Of a DNA stretch of 64,000 nt, positions 5,984-13,771 are shown piece after piece. Position 1 is the stretch's first letter. Every line of letters starts with the position of its first letter. This DNA comes from an uncultured Spirochaetota bacterium (GTDB lineage: Bacteria > Spirochaetota > Spirochaetia > JAFGXN01): the NCBI GenBank assembly GCA_944388995.1, contig CALXKN010000003.1, positions 1 through 64,000 of the forward strand, read 5' to 3'. The notes under the pieces were generated by a model. The model worked only from the letters and a program-made list of their open reading frames with translations, was not told the origin of the DNA and ran no database searches. The position numbers and the translations under genes are program-made.

Positions 5984-6262
5984 TTAAAAATAGCGGTTGA
6001 TCAGTTCGGTCATCGCTTTGCGGGCTTCTTCTCTGTCCCCGTCCGGTTCTCGGAAAAGGACGGCCGGATTGATTTGCAGGGCATCGCAGATTTTCAAAAT
6101 CGTGTGAAGTGTGGGAATCCGTTTCCCTGTTTCAATGAAGTTGACAAGATTCTGTGACACTTTTGCCTTATACGCAAGATCCAGCTGTGAGATGTTCGCC
6201 CGCTTCCTTTCCTCTCTCAGACGGGCCGCAAAATGTTTTTCCTGTTCTTCAATGGATGACAT
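5984..6262 (-). CDS. XRE-family transcriptional regulator
   Basis: 92-residue DNA-binding protein made almost entirely of one Cro/C1-type helix-turn-helix. It reads ERKRANISQLDLAYKAKVSQ, then NLVNFIETGKRIPTLHTILKICDAL, i.e. helices 2-5 of HTH_3. A short tail follows. ATG 6262 is preferred over GTG 6289 because TTGCCC-N17-CATAAT ends 6 bases before it; neither start has a ribosome-binding site. The intergenic inverted repeat at 6298-6315 is a good candidate operator for it. It may control itself, the divergent 6379 operon and/or the HEPN-like gene downstream. Confidence 0.88.
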   Translation of the reverse strand: MSSIEEQEKHFAARLREERKRANISQLDLAYKAKVSQNLVNFIETGKRIPTLHTILKICDALQINPAVLFREPDGDREEARKAMTELINRYF

Positions 6263-6268
6263 AAAGCG

Positions 6269-6297
6269 ATTATGAAGAATCTTAAACACTTGGGCAA
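6269..6297 (-). promoter_or_regulatory. Leaderless promoter of the XRE gene
   Basis: Minus strand: TTGCCC (6297-6292), 17-bp spacer, CATAAT (6274-6269), then 6 bases and ATG 6262. No ribosome-binding site. The -35 directly abuts the TTCACA/TGTGAA inverted repeat. Confidence 0.6.
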
Positions 6298-6315
6298 TTC
6301 ACAATAGTGTGTGAA
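6298..6315. promoter_or_regulatory. Candidate operator between divergent XRE and 6379 genes
   Basis: Inverted repeat TTCACA-N6-TGTGAA, with an inner overlapping register CACA-N4-TGTG. It sits between the -35 boxes of the two divergent promoters, where one dimeric repressor could affect both. Confidence 0.55.
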
Positions 6316-6324
6316 AATTTATAC

Positions 6325-6352
6325 TTGACAACATGATGATTTGTGTTATAAT
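6325..6352 (+). promoter_or_regulatory. Consensus promoter of the 6379 operon
   Basis: TTGACA (6325-6330), 16-bp spacer, TATAAT (6347-6352): both hexamers are perfect. A second TATAAT at 6354-6359 is too far from the -35 to be the main one. Confidence 0.8.
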
Positions 6353-6378: not shown

Positions 6379-6741
6379 ATGTCTTTTTTGGATGACTTGG
6401 GTGATGTGATTGTCGAAAAAATCGACGATTTTACGGAAGCCGTAGAAGACAAACTGGAAGATATCGGCAACAAAGCCGTCGATTTTCTCGATTCGATTGC
6501 GGTGAATCCGTATGATGTTCCCAACATGTTTATGCCCAACTACATCGTTTGGCAGTTTTCGACAGCCGAAAAAGAGGAGGCGCTGGTTGTGTCTTTCTCC
6601 CATAAGCAGGATATGAAACCGATTGTGGCGATGATTCAGGGGGAAATTGCCAAATCGGGATATGCGATCGAACTGACGGAAGAAGATCGCCGTCCGGATG
6701 ATCTGAAGCAGAAATATCCGCTGCAAAAACTGATTCCGTGA
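6379..6741 (+). CDS. Unknown acidic cytoplasmic protein
   Basis: 120 residues, no signal peptide. An amphipathic, acidic N-terminal half opens MSFLDDLGDVIVEKIDD and continues with EAVEDKLEDIGNKAVDFLD, probably helical. A C-terminal mixed region follows. The first residues resemble the tiny acidic protein at 10279 (MSLLDEMG). Ribosome-binding site GGAG at 6367-6370. The stop overlaps the start of the exported two-domain protein, so the pair is co-translated. Function not recognised. Confidence 0.65.
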   Translation: MSFLDDLGDVIVEKIDDFTEAVEDKLEDIGNKAVDFLDSIAVNPYDVPNMFMPNYIVWQFSTAEKEEALVVSFSHKQDMKPIVAMIQGEIAKSGYAIELTEEDRRPDDLKQKYPLQKLIP

Positions 6742-7478
6742 TGAGAAAGATTCTTTCGATTGTTCTTTTGTTTGCTGCCGCCCTGTGCCTTCCGGCGCAG
6801 GAGTCGGCGGAGGCGCAACGCTGTATCGATATTATTCGTACCAGTTCGTTTACAATTTATCCCGACATTACGGTGGACCGGCTTTTTTCCCCGATGACCG
6901 GGTTGGAGTGGACGGCCCGTCCCGATAACCGCAAACCGCACATCTGGTATGTTCGGGCCGACGGAATGATGACGGTCGAAGGCGTGCCGCTGCCGACAAC
7001 TTTTTTCTTCCGCCTGGATACGCAAACCGCTTCCTGGCGGGTGGAACGGGTGGTCGTAGCCGGGATCGAATCGCTTTCGGCCAACGATGTCGGCGAGATT
7101 CTCGACTACCTGCAAATGGCACAGGATAAGGATCTGCACCCGGCCGTCAAATGTGTCCGGTCGGGGGTTTTCGCCGATTCGCAATACAGCAGTGCGACTG
7201 TCGGGCGGATGTTCGATACTGTTTTTGCCGGATTGAAGTGGTCGGTGAAAGATTCCGGCCGCCGTCACCGGTTTTATGTGACCGCATCGGGAGAAATGGC
7301 GCATAACGGCGTGGCTCTGCCGGCAAAAGTGACTTTCGATGTCGATGTCTCACGCGAAACGTGGCAGATATGCGAAATCGAACTGATGGGCAGCCGCTCC
7401 TCTTCGGCTTGGGAAATAGCGGAAATGGTCGATCTCATCGATTCCGTCTATTTCGAAAAATCGGGTGATTATTTCTGA
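6741..7478 (+). CDS. Exported protein with two copies of a local repeat domain
   Basis: 245 residues with a signal peptide (residues 1 to about 19, ending LCLPAQ). It has two homologous domains of about 90 residues (about 33-123 and 143-236). Each has V-x-x-x-F-D/S-x-V/M-x-x-x-L-x-W, then a strand pair, then W-R/Q-V/I and an acidic end. The same domain occurs once each in the proteins at 8056 and 8497. ATG 6741 overlaps the stop of the upstream gene (TGATG). I recognise no named family; an envelope-located, structural or binding role is an inference. Confidence 0.7.
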   Translation: MRKILSIVLLFAAALCLPAQESAEAQRCIDIIRTSSFTIYPDITVDRLFSPMTGLEWTARPDNRKPHIWYVRADGMMTVEGVPLPTTFFFRLDTQTASWRVERVVVAGIESLSANDVGEILDYLQMAQDKDLHPAVKCVRSGVFADSQYSSATVGRMFDTVFAGLKWSVKDSGRRHRFYVTASGEMAHNGVALPAKVTFDVDVSRETWQICEIELMGSRSSSAWEIAEMVDLIDSVYFEKSGDYF

Positions 7479-7534
7479 ATAAAAAAAGGCAATTTCGGTG
7501 AATCCGAAAAAATAAACTTTAAGGAGTGCGTCTT

Positions 7535-8038
7535 ATGGAAAAAGACAAAAAAATTGTCGCCTTCATCAACGGCGATCCGACGGGCGAGCGGGAAACATCG
7601 TCATCCGCTTATTTTACGCGTTCTTTCGAGAAATTCGATTACAAAGGAGCACCTGTTTTCGGTTTTCAGTGGAACTGGATGTCCTTTCTGTTCGGACCGA
7701 TTTATATGATGTGGCGCCGCCGTTACTGGGAAGGGGCGTTGTATGCTCTGCTCTCGCTGCCCCTGTCGTGGATGCTTCTGGTGGTTCCTTTCTTGAACGG
7801 AACATTGATTCCGTGGATTATGAACTGGTCGTATCGCCGGCATAAAGCGAAAGCGGAAAAGTTCTTCCCGGGCAATGAGGCCGATCAGCTGGCTTATCTG
7901 TCGAAAGTCGGCGGGACCAACAAAAACGTCATTATTATTGCCGCCGTTCTGGCCGGTGTTTCTGTATTCATTTGGCTGCTTGTTCTGATTATAGCTGCCA
8001 TTGCTGCCGCCTCTATGGCTTCCGCATATTATTATTGA
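7535..8038 (+). CDS. DUF2628-like membrane protein
   Basis: 167 residues. The centre (FGFQWNWMSFLFGPIYMMWR, then RRYWEGALYALL) matches the W-N-W-x-x-F-x-F-G-P-x-Y/W pattern of DUF2628 proteins. Those are small membrane proteins of unknown role. Two hydrophobic segments follow in the middle and a third near residues 128-158. ATG 7535 has AAGGAG at 7521-7526; an upstream in-frame GTG would overlap that site. It sits between members of the local repeat-domain family, perhaps as part of the same envelope unit. Confidence 0.75.
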   Translation: MEKDKKIVAFINGDPTGERETSSSAYFTRSFEKFDYKGAPVFGFQWNWMSFLFGPIYMMWRRRYWEGALYALLSLPLSWMLLVVPFLNGTLIPWIMNWSYRRHKAKAEKFFPGNEADQLAYLSKVGGTNKNVIIIAAVLAGVSVFIWLLVLIIAAIAAASMASAYYY

Positions 8039-8055
8039 GATAAAAGAGGTTAAAA

Positions 8056-8484
8056 ATGAAAAGAGGATTTCGATTTTTATTTGCTGTAATGATTGCTTCG
8101 GTTTTTTCGGGTTGTTTCGGTAATTCCGCTGTTAAAATGCTGAAAAACGGCTATCTGGAAGATCGGGAAGATGTCACGGTCGGAGAGGTCTTTGATTCTG
8201 TTTTTCGTGATTTGAAATGGACTCAGGAAGATGGAAATCGTCCCGAAATTGTGTTTGTAAAGGCGTTCGGTATTTTCACCGATCCCGGAAGCGGTGTTCA
8301 GATACCGTTGGGGGTCAGTTTTGAAGTGAATACGGACAGTGAGACATGGCAGGTGAATGAAGTGGTTTTCGGACGTGGCGCATCGAGAGAATCCTCGACT
8401 TATGATTCCGATATCAGTGAAGTGATCGATATGATTTATACTTCGTACGATACCGGTAACGACGGGGAGTCGTTTTTCTTTTAG
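8056..8484 (+). CDS. Lipoprotein with one local repeat domain
   Basis: 142 residues. A signal sequence with lipobox Val-Phe-Ser-Gly-Cys places the lipidated Cys at about residue 20. The remainder is a single copy of the domain found twice in the 6741 protein: TVGEVFDSVFRDLKW, then GIFTDPGSGVQIPLGVSFEV, TWQVNEVVF and an acidic helix ending DMIY. Ribosome-binding site AGAGG precedes ATG 8056. Base composition looks more A/T-rich than the genes before it. Function unknown. Confidence 0.72.
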   Translation: MKRGFRFLFAVMIASVFSGCFGNSAVKMLKNGYLEDREDVTVGEVFDSVFRDLKWTQEDGNRPEIVFVKAFGIFTDPGSGVQIPLGVSFEVNTDSETWQVNEVVFGRGASRESSTYDSDISEVIDMIYTSYDTGNDGESFFF

Positions 8485-8496
8485 GAGAAATGGTCA

Positions 8497-8883
8497 ATGA
8501 AAAAAATAATGATGCTGTTGCTGGTTTGTGCATCCGTATTTGCTCAAAGTTGCCGGAAAGAACATCCGGCTTTGGCTTACCTGAAAACCGCTGCACTGGA
8601 AAATTGGCCTTATCCGACGATCGGAACGGCAATCAGGCAATCCTGTCAAAACCCTGTTTGGAAAGTCGAAAGTGAGGATGAAGGCGTTTATACGGTGACT
8701 GTCAGCGGACGCGTGCGTGCTCTTTCCGGAGAGGTGATGCCGTTAACGGTCTACTTCGAGGTCGATCCCGTGAAGAAAGAAATTGATACGGATAAAATCC
8801 GTTTGGGAAAACAGACTTTCAGCCGTTACTCCGATATCAATGAGTTTTGGGATTTTATTTACTACAGAGAAAACGGAGAATAA
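8497..8883 (+). CDS. Exported, probably lipidated protein with one local repeat domain
   Basis: 128 residues. The signal peptide ends SVFAQSC, an imperfect lipobox (Gln at -2) that spirochaete lipoproteins might tolerate. The body is a diverged copy of the same domain: TIGTAIRQSCQNPVWKV, then a V-T-V-S-G-R strand, then VMPLTVYFEV and a final helix NEFWDFIY. It keeps the Trp and the strand pattern but lacks the central W-x-V/I. ATG 8497 with AGGAG at 8483-8487. It probably belongs to the same transcription unit as 8056 and 8889. Confidence 0.68.
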   Translation: MKKIMMLLLVCASVFAQSCRKEHPALAYLKTAALENWPYPTIGTAIRQSCQNPVWKVESEDEGVYTVTVSGRVRALSGEVMPLTVYFEVDPVKKEIDTDKIRLGKQTFSRYSDINEFWDFIYYRENGE

Positions 8884-8888
8884 AGAAG

Positions 8889-10097
8889 ATGAAAAAGAAT
8901 AAAATTTTTTCGGTTCTCTTGGGTGCTTTATTCTTGGTCGGATGCTCCCAAAGCAATGTCATACGTTATCAGGCTTCGGAGAAGATTCATGTCACAATAA
9001 AAAACGGATGGGGTGCCGAATATCTGCCCGAACGGTCTCAGTGGGATCCCGAAAGCGGGAAAGGCACTTTGGTTTTTTCGCAGGAGATTAAACGCATTCC
9101 GAAGAAAGCGTTCTCGAAAAGAAAGGCTTTAACGCAAATAGAAATTCCGCCGACAGTGGAAATTATTCGCGATAATGCATTCGAATTCTGCGAAAATTTA
9201 TCGGAAATAACGGTCTCCGGTAACGTGGTTGTCATCGGAGAAAGTGCGTTCTTTCGCTGCCGTAATCTTAAACGGTTCGATTTTCCGAAATCACTTCAAT
9301 TTATAGGTGACAATGCTTTTTACGGTTCCGGCTTGGAGCGTGTTGATTTACCGTCCGGTCTCAAATCATTGGGGTACGCAGCATTCGAAAACTGTACCGA
9401 TTTAAAGACAGCGCATCTTGACGGTACGTTTACCTCTTTAGGTTCTTCGTTGTTTTCGGATTGCGAATCTCTAACGGCTGTCGAAATTCCCGAAACGGTG
9501 ACGAAAATCGATAACAGTGCATTCGAGAACTGCCGGAGTTTGCCGGAATTCGTGCTTTGGGAACATGTGTCGATACTCGGAGACGGAGTCTTTCGGGGGT
9601 GTTCTTCTTTTAAAAATTTTGTATTACCCGATACTCTTGAAGAATTCGGGAGCGGACTTTTTGAGAATTGTGAGGCATTAACATCGGTGCAGTTTCCTGC
9701 CGAAATAATGAAAACCGTCCCCGACTCGACATTTGCGAATTGCCGTTCTCTTAAAGAGGCGGTTATTCCCGAAACGGTGACTGCTGTCGGAGAAAAAGCA
9801 TTTATGAATTGCCGGAGCCTTTCCCGAATGACGATCCCGGCGGGAGTCACTTTTATCGGCTCGGATGCGTTTGACGGTTGCGAGAGCTTAAAAGAAGTCT
9901 CTTTGTCTTCGGCGGAGCCGCCGACGATTTACAAATCGGAATACAGTTGGTATTATAATTCGTATGTGATTGCCTGGGATTGGGGTGTCGATCGGGAAAA
10001 ATGTACGATCTATGTTCCGGCCGATTCTGTCGAAACATACACTCAGGCATGGCCGTTTCACAAAAATCAAATTAAAGTGCAAGGTGTGAAAAACTGA
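8889..10097 (+). CDS. BspA-like leucine-rich-repeat lipoprotein
   Basis: 402 residues. A signal sequence with lipobox Phe-Leu-Val-Gly-Cys is followed by about eleven tandem LRR_5 (BspA/TpLRR) repeats of 23-24 residues. The repeat pattern is L-x-x-V/I-x-I-P-x-T/S-V-x-x-I-x-x-x-A-F-x-x-C-x-x-L. A C-terminal cap begins near TIYKSEYSW. Proteins of this type in treponemes and Bacteroides bind host or bacterial surfaces, so a surface-adhesion role is likely by family. ATG 8889 chosen for the signal peptide, with GGAG at 8875-8878; the frame opens upstream inside the previous gene. The gene has A/T-rich codon use compared with the later clusters. Confidence 0.88.
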   Translation: MKKNKIFSVLLGALFLVGCSQSNVIRYQASEKIHVTIKNGWGAEYLPERSQWDPESGKGTLVFSQEIKRIPKKAFSKRKALTQIEIPPTVEIIRDNAFEFCENLSEITVSGNVVVIGESAFFRCRNLKRFDFPKSLQFIGDNAFYGSGLERVDLPSGLKSLGYAAFENCTDLKTAHLDGTFTSLGSSLFSDCESLTAVEIPETVTKIDNSAFENCRSLPEFVLWEHVSILGDGVFRGCSSFKNFVLPDTLEEFGSGLFENCEALTSVQFPAEIMKTVPDSTFANCRSLKEAVIPETVTAVGEKAFMNCRSLSRMTIPAGVTFIGSDAFDGCESLKEVSLSSAEPPTIYKSEYSWYYNSYVIAWDWGVDREKCTIYVPADSVETYTQAWPFHKNQIKVQGVKN

Positions 10098-12609: not shown

Positions 12610-13203
12610 ATGAAAAGCAAAACGGCGATAGGTCTTTTTTTAATTCTGTCGGCGCTGTTTCCTGTTTATGCGGAGGAAGCGGATACTCCGGCCGCCGCGC
12701 CGTCTTCAGCCGGTGAAACGGAGGTTCCTGCGGACGGAGCTGCCGGTGAAACGGCGGAAAACGAGGCCGCGCCGGTTTCCCTGAAGAAAAATAAACTCGG
12801 TTTTGTCTTCGGAATGCCGGTAGCGCTCTCCTACTCGCACGAGTTCACGGATTTGGTTGAACTGGATCTGCTGGTTTCGACCTATCCGTTTTTATGGCGG
12901 TTGATCGGAGAAATGAGCGTTTATTGCGGCGTTCTGTTCACTTTGGCTGACGGCGCCGTCAAAGACAGACCCTGGGCGCTGACGCTGGGACCGTCCGTCG
13001 GAACAACTCTGCTGTTTTCGGGCGGATTCGGCGCTTCACTGGATCTTTATGCGGATTTACGGTGGGAAATCGACTTTCCGCAGACGAGCCGGGTGAACTT
13101 CTTTTTGAATTTCGGTTGGGGAGCCGTGATGAGATTTGACGGCGGAACCGTTGACGCCCTGTTTCCTCCCCGCGGCGGTTTCGGTGTGCGCGGCCGTTTT
13201 TGA
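12610..13203 (+). CDS. Outer-membrane barrel-like protein, paralogue A
   Basis: 197 residues. A signal peptide ending VYA is followed by an Ala/Pro/Glu-rich linker (about 24-60) and a strand-rich domain containing SYSHEFTDLVELDL and PWALTLGPSVGTTLLFSGGF. The C-terminal residue is Phe, as is usual in bacterial outer-membrane barrels. It is clearly homologous to the next gene over its whole C-terminal domain and differs mainly by the extra linker. The function is unknown; location in the outer membrane is inferred from signal peptide, amphipathic strands and terminal Phe. Confidence 0.72.
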   Translation: MKSKTAIGLFLILSALFPVYAEEADTPAAAPSSAGETEVPADGAAGETAENEAAPVSLKKNKLGFVFGMPVALSYSHEFTDLVELDLLVSTYPFLWRLIGEMSVYCGVLFTLADGAVKDRPWALTLGPSVGTTLLFSGGFGASLDLYADLRWEIDFPQTSRVNFFLNFGWGAVMRFDGGTVDALFPPRGGFGVRGRF

Positions 13204-13285: not shown

Positions 13286-13771
13286 ATGAAGAAAAAACTT
13301 TTGATTTCGCTTCTTTTACTGGCAGTCGGCAGCGCGTCGGTTTTTGCGAGCAGCAAAGACAAATTGGGAGCTTATGTCGGCTGGCCGCTCGGTTTGTCCT
13401 ATTCGCATGAGTTTACCGATTTGGTTGAATTGGACTTGATCGCCGCTTACAACGGTTGGGGACCCGGAGTCGGCGGTTTGAATATCTTTTTGGGCGCGCT
13501 GTTCACGCTGACCGACGGTTCGGTTGACGGACATCCGTGGGCGCTGACGCTCGGTCCTTCGTTCGGTACGACGCTCGGTTTTTGGGGCGGTTTCAGCGCT
13601 TCGCTTGACGTTTTGGCCGATTTGCGCTGGGAAATCGACTTCGCGACTGTAAAGGGGTTCAACTTTTTCCTTGACTTTGCTCCCGGGGTAACGTTTCGTT
13701 TTCATAATGAAGAGTATCCTGTCTACTTCGGTTACCGCGCCGGCGTCGGTCTGCGTTACCGTTTTCAATAA
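13286..13771 (+). CDS. Outer-membrane barrel-like protein, paralogue B
   Basis: 161 residues with a signal peptide ending VFAS. The mature part matches paralogue A: SYSHEFTDLVELDL, then HPWALTLGPSFGTTLGFWGG, then a shared ASLD-ADLRWEIDF core. It lacks the Ala/Pro linker and ends YRFQ. Ribosome-binding site AAGGAG precedes ATG 13286. A terminator follows at 13793-13817. This looks like a tandem duplication with retained expression of both copies. Function unknown; an envelope location is inferred. Confidence 0.72.
   Translation: MKKKLLISLLLLAVGSASVFASSKDKLGAYVGWPLGLSYSHEFTDLVELDLIAAYNGWGPGVGGLNIFLGALFTLTDGSVDGHPWALTLGPSFGTTLGFWGGFSASLDVLADLRWEIDFATVKGFNFFLDFAPGVTFRFHNEEYPVYFGYRAGVGLRYRFQ

Follow-up and report, generated by a model that had tools for sequence, protein, structure and literature searches.

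An unnamed, predicted extracytoplasmic domain of spirochaete exported proteins and its putative zinc-ribbon and DUF2628 membrane partners

The locus near the start of a contig from an uncultured Spirochaetota bacterium raises the question of whether the small exported proteins encoded around a membrane-protein gene are built from one domain, whether that domain already has a name, and what it might do in the envelope. The window referred to below is the whole stretch of DNA that was analysed, 64,000 nucleotides in length. The genes concerned belong to a presumed operon of six genes, separated by gaps of -1, 56, 17, 12 and 5 nt (the last between C and the LRR_5 gene) and preceded, 26 nt ahead of the first gene, by a promoter-like site, with the other features as shown in Table 1. 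The DUF2628 gene is the sole copy in its genome and is separate from the genes of the domain, and no zinc ribbon was seen in the window genes. The sequence-only reading had named a DUF2628-like protein and a downstream BspA-like gene as neighbours, and both are recovered by Pfam models.

Table 1. Features of the locus (positions in the window)
Feature	Position	Strand	Evidence and remarks
Divergent XRE/HTH_3 regulator	5984..6289	-	PF01381, E 7.7e-13
Inverted repeat TTCACA-N6-TGTGAA by the promoter, candidate operator	6298..6315	.	sequence only
Promoter-like TTGACA-N16-TATAAT	6325..6352	+	12/12 matches; TG before the -10 (extended -10)
First gene of presumed operon, joining two genes in frame (chimera)	6379..6741	+	comparison with sister species
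Gene A, secreted, two domain copies	6741..7478	+	signal peptide without canonical lipobox; A1 at ~6822-7112, A2 at ~7143-7451; alternative GTG start possible three bases earlier
DUF2628 membrane protein containing two strongly hydrophobic segments	7535..8038	+	PF10947, E 1.9e-6, above Pfam cut-off
Gene B, lipoprotein, one domain copy	8056..8484	+	lipobox FSGC; AlphaFold pLDDT 88.0, pTM 0.80
Gene C, probable lipoprotein, one diverged copy	8497..8883	+	looser lipobox AQS-C; AlphaFold pLDDT 86.8, pTM 0.79
LRR_5 (BspA-like) lipoprotein, last gene of presumed operon	8889..10097	+	PF13306, E 2.5e-73; lipobox LVGC

The window contains four copies of one domain of about 90-110 residues, namely A1 and A2 in gene A, B and C, in agreement with the three genes and four copies first proposed. 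Pairs of window copies reached z-scores of 7-28 in Smith-Waterman comparisons with 500 shuffles, except for A1-C, with a z-score of 3.1. The decisive test used a profile whose sequences were all homologues from other genera than the window's own. Run on 482 window frames, it matched A in two stretches (E 2.1e-16), B at 1.3e-11 and C at 1.1e-5, with the next-best window frame at 0.13 and the top reversed decoy at 0.25, and it also picked up the D and B2 copies of the genus; the genus set and the outside set were aligned by hhalign with a probability of 98.6 and an E of 9e-16. Membership in this unnamed family, taken as a match to a profile lacking the window's genus, was found for A, B, C and D, the last being a lipoprotein on another contig and the fifth copy of its own genome, four of which lie in the window. 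The conserved pattern comprises T(V/I)G...F, an invariant tryptophan, V...G and an invariant phenylalanine, followed by W.V and a C-terminal helix, so that the motif as initially described was broadly right. Export of all members is likewise upheld as a prediction, by the lipobox FSG-C in B, the looser one in C and the plain signal peptide of A. The homology of A1, A2, B and C as a single domain, predicted to be extracytoplasmic, is confirmed by these results.

The AlphaFold models of B and C, which were derived from a common five-row alignment and hence are not fully independent, display the same alpha2-beta4-alpha fold (a short helix, a helix, four long strands and a C-terminal helix) and not unrelated folds. 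It is very improbable that some copies, above all C, are unrelated and alike by chance; the weak A1-C pair and the position of C as the longest branch in the tree are in favour of this, but the outside-only profile matches C far from the decoys, and both models place the elements in the same order, though their alignment is shared. The description of the domain as unrecognised, and not an already named one, also holds, because the best matches of 22 members in Pfam-A (E 0.025) and NCBIfam (E 0.039) were sub-threshold and each came from a single member, the domain in the window proteins was likewise without a curated match in either library, and a profile of the 22 members found nothing among PDB sequences. 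Weak matches to Lum_binding (Pfam, E 0.037) and to Cor superinfection exclusion (PHROG, E 0.037) fell short of the threshold and were discarded. Foldseek searches of PDB and viral structures gave no match at E <= 0.001, with TM-scores up to about 0.39. Among the weak neighbours were orange carotenoid protein and epoxide hydrolases as well as MlaC-family proteins, NTF2 and cystatin C; MlaC-family, NTF2-like and cystatin-like proteins turned up repeatedly, mixed with unrelated proteins, and in one search ribosomal and other unrelated proteins scored equally high. The domain might be a diverged NTF2-like or cystatin-like one missed by existing models, comparable to outer parts known from certain other membrane proteins with zinc ribbons. 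The named neighbours would favour this, but with no neighbour reaching significance and ribosomal proteins scoring as high in one search, we regard this claim about the fold, which is compatible with the functional explanation preferred below, as possible and somewhat less than probable. The best reading is that of a new domain family set in an architecture of known kind.

The profile search found the domain in 38 of the 393 genomes and 10 of the 168 genera of the phylum sample, and outside the phylum it was observed in a plasmid protein of Cytobacillus oceanisediminis, annotated as 'DUF2628 domain-containing', which reads zinc ribbon-DUF2628-domain in one chain. The initial designation as a local family is therefore wrong, the copy on another contig also speaking against it. 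The spread beyond the phylum rests on this one plasmid protein, since a scan of genome contigs gave no locus beyond the known one of G118; tblastn of phages and plasmids with B as the sole query gave no match, a viral-contig match (L065) was rejected as a short chance match to a phage tail-type protein, and L046 was excluded from the family as too weak a match. Three protein forms were observed, namely single-domain lipoproteins, multi-domain secreted proteins with two or three copies, and zinc ribbon-TM-domain proteins, and the domain is predicted to be extracytoplasmic in all three. Several copies per genome are found in one genus (f46 g105), which we take to be Brachyspira-like, with three copies in some of its proteins. 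The architecture of zinc ribbon, TM and outer domain is exhibited by G118, by G360 (where the membrane part is TM2), by the f46 genus (one chain of which also contains a sub-cut-off bPH_3) and by Cytobacillus, and not by the window genes. Exported proteins of spirochaetes, and of at least one Bacillota plasmid, that go unlabelled in the family libraries can thereby be assigned to a family worth naming, for which a profile and a confidently predicted fold are available.

Linkage to membrane partners was observed in several genera, with a chance expectation of about 1e-3 to 3e-3 per linkage. DUF2628 is adjacent to the domain in two genera, G000/G001 and G282 (the G282 match lying below the Pfam cut-off); bPH_3 occurs in six carrier genomes, five of which have it fused to the domain or no more than 2 kb away, three of these five cases coming from one genus and the fused one being sub-cut-off; in G178 and G325 each of the three SHOCT motifs above cut-off is found less than 1 kb from a domain gene, unlike the SHOCT motif of G118; a zinc ribbon-bPH_2 gene stands directly upstream of the domain gene in G149; and TM2 proteins are encoded near it in G344, G414 and G360. 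Beside copy D no zinc-ribbon, PH, SHOCT, DUF2628 or TM2 partner was noticed. At the genome level, co-occurrence with over-cut-off DUF2628 is at chance (2 observed vs 1.2 expected, p 0.33), so that the suggested association was found as adjacency in two genera and fusion in Cytobacillus, but not as shared presence; the DUF2628 signal is one of position and fusion. That the TM segments of the f46 genus are DUF2628 could not be shown (hhalign probability 25), and Variovorax and other proteobacterial DUF2628 proteins were discarded as carriers, being without the domain. The suggested link to LRR_5 proved weak, because LRR_5 is abundant (6-57 matches per genome having it) and was seen to adjoin a domain gene only in the window and G325. 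A divergent XRE gene occupies the same position at the cluster in G000, G282 and G360, which is weak evidence because XRE genes are common. Through these fusions and linkages DUF2628, TM2, SHOCT and bPH are tied together, and a common role becomes testable. In two genomes (L098 1085-2275 and L059 2986-4116), a protein of 376-396 residues without a Pfam match is encoded between a domain lipoprotein and a TM2 protein and is likely another conserved partner.

Comparable arrangements have been described. The YARHG domain is extracytoplasmic, with its ligand unknown, often stands alone behind a signal peptide, probably forms four helices and frequently shares a chain with zinc ribbons at the N-terminus and a TM segment (PMC3355149). 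The present domain is found in the same two settings, and one YARHG protein likewise carries DUF2628, whereas the predicted alpha2-beta4-alpha fold is alpha+beta and not all-helical, no tested copy matches the YARHG model, and YARHG is not among the Pfam matches at E <= 1. A zinc ribbon and a TM segment with a further domain are also shared with YdjG, in which that domain is described as NTF2-like and which is linked to PspA (PMC11237479), and with TcaA, a zinc-ribbon protein (PMC10611510) belonging to a glycopeptide-response operon, but the domain matches none of their Pfam or NCBIfam models and the fold resemblance is not significant. Partners of the phage shock protein system resemble the present clusters in having sub-membrane SHOCT-like or zinc-ribbon domains beside exported or membrane proteins (PMC11237479), unlike in that PspA, PspC, Toastrack and LiaF were not noticed on reading the clusters. 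DUF2628 (PF10947) itself adjoins the domain gene in the window and G282 and shares its chain in Cytobacillus, but it is the membrane part and not the exported domain, and most DUF2628 genomes of the phylum sample are without the domain.

The explanation that we favour, with slightly less than even confidence, is that an envelope module in the inner membrane, made up of zinc-ribbon, DUF2628, TM2, PH and SHOCT components under XRE control, has the domain as its outer part for sensing or binding. It builds on the homology, the common predicted fold, the export signals, the fusions and the gene linkage, to which binding, assembly and control are added by analogy with YARHG (PMC3355149), YdjG and SHOCT-like partners (PMC11237479) and SHOCT (PMC3581485). 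The domain would sit at the inner membrane on its periplasmic side, or be tethered in the envelope by a lipid anchor, and may there bind a ligand or partner; the zinc-ribbon/PH/SHOCT side would assemble a complex beneath the membrane, and the divergent XRE repressor might control how strongly the operon is expressed through the promoter at 6325-6352. The single-chain zinc ribbon-DUF2628-domain form would then appear in the window as separate genes with the domain multiplied. A bolder version, which we consider doubtful, takes the domain as the sensor of an undescribed, horizontally moving envelope-stress module of spirochaetes and Bacillota, comprising a zinc ribbon/DUF2628/TM2 membrane protein, a bPH-SHOCT assembly factor and an XRE repressor, with the spirochaetes multiplying the sensor.

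Surface or periplasmic binding proteins for adhesion or nutrient capture, with the LRR_5 lipoprotein as functional partner, would also account for lipoproteins, for tandem copies such as the two in A and the three in some f46-genus proteins, and for LRR_5 downstream in the window and beside the domain gene in G325, but the zinc-ribbon/PH/SHOCT/DUF2628/TM2 linkage is far more regular than that of LRR_5, whose abundance makes two adjacencies weak, and we hold this alternative to be unlikely. Still less likely is a defence or conflict cassette that moves from genome to genome and in which the exported domain would be the part facing the envelope; boundary duplications are in its favour. In G282, a cluster of domain, DUF2628 and XRE genes plus two other genes lies between 838-bp direct duplications of a carB-like 3' end (92% identical; L054 279-1116 and 4821-5658), and in G325 a bPH_3-SHOCT/domain/LRR_5 cluster is bounded by direct duplications of 215-296 bp (93-94%) of the 3' end of a neighbouring acetyltransferase-like gene (C1:212730-213196 and 217281-217843; L057, L100, L101), the pieces being in swapped order on the far side. 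Full copies of these duplications occur nowhere else in those genomes, and the arrangement suggests that each of the two clusters arrived as a unit. The patchy spread over genera and the occurrence on a Bacillota plasmid would fit such a cassette as well, but none of the genes read between the repeats was recognised as encoding a recombinase, integrase or nuclease, no long flanking repeat is seen in the window, and nearly all positives of the f46 genus have the single-domain lipoprotein, a pattern resembling ordinary inheritance.

Growth of the envelope module by local duplication, as read from the window at first, is upheld in part. In a tree of 34 copies, the nine of the genus cluster at 84/85, below the threshold, and A1, A2 and B group together at 85/87, and this moderate tree support fits an old duplication within the lineage, with local duplication at most a past event. 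The recent history, on the other hand, is one of loss, both loci having lost material since the split from the sister species. The latter retains A and DUF2628 (DNA 95.6% identical) and is without 8042-9996, so that B and C are missing and the LRR_5 gene is reduced to about 100 bp of its 3' end, beside DUF2628 (L014 7755-7820); it also carries an extra domain gene (L014:2182-2592) that is absent from the window. Gene A is under constraint as judged from a dN/dS of 0.31 between the two species, whereas DUF2628, with 165 of 167 residues identical, has too few changes for a selection estimate. On the side of the window, the 5' third of the first operon gene resembles a small acidic gene (72% DNA, L014:1717-1832), the remainder is the 3' end of a membrane-protein gene that is intact in the sister species, and the junction falls at a shared TTCTCGnnTCGATTG. 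The gene is a deletion chimera and probably represents the derived state, since the two kinds of gene that it joins stand apart in the sister species.

Elsewhere in the window, two adjacent exported proteins (12610-13203 and 13286-13771) look like paralogous outer-membrane proteins, and a 38-bp repeat, 87% identical, is shared between them (12829-12866 vs 13397-13434).
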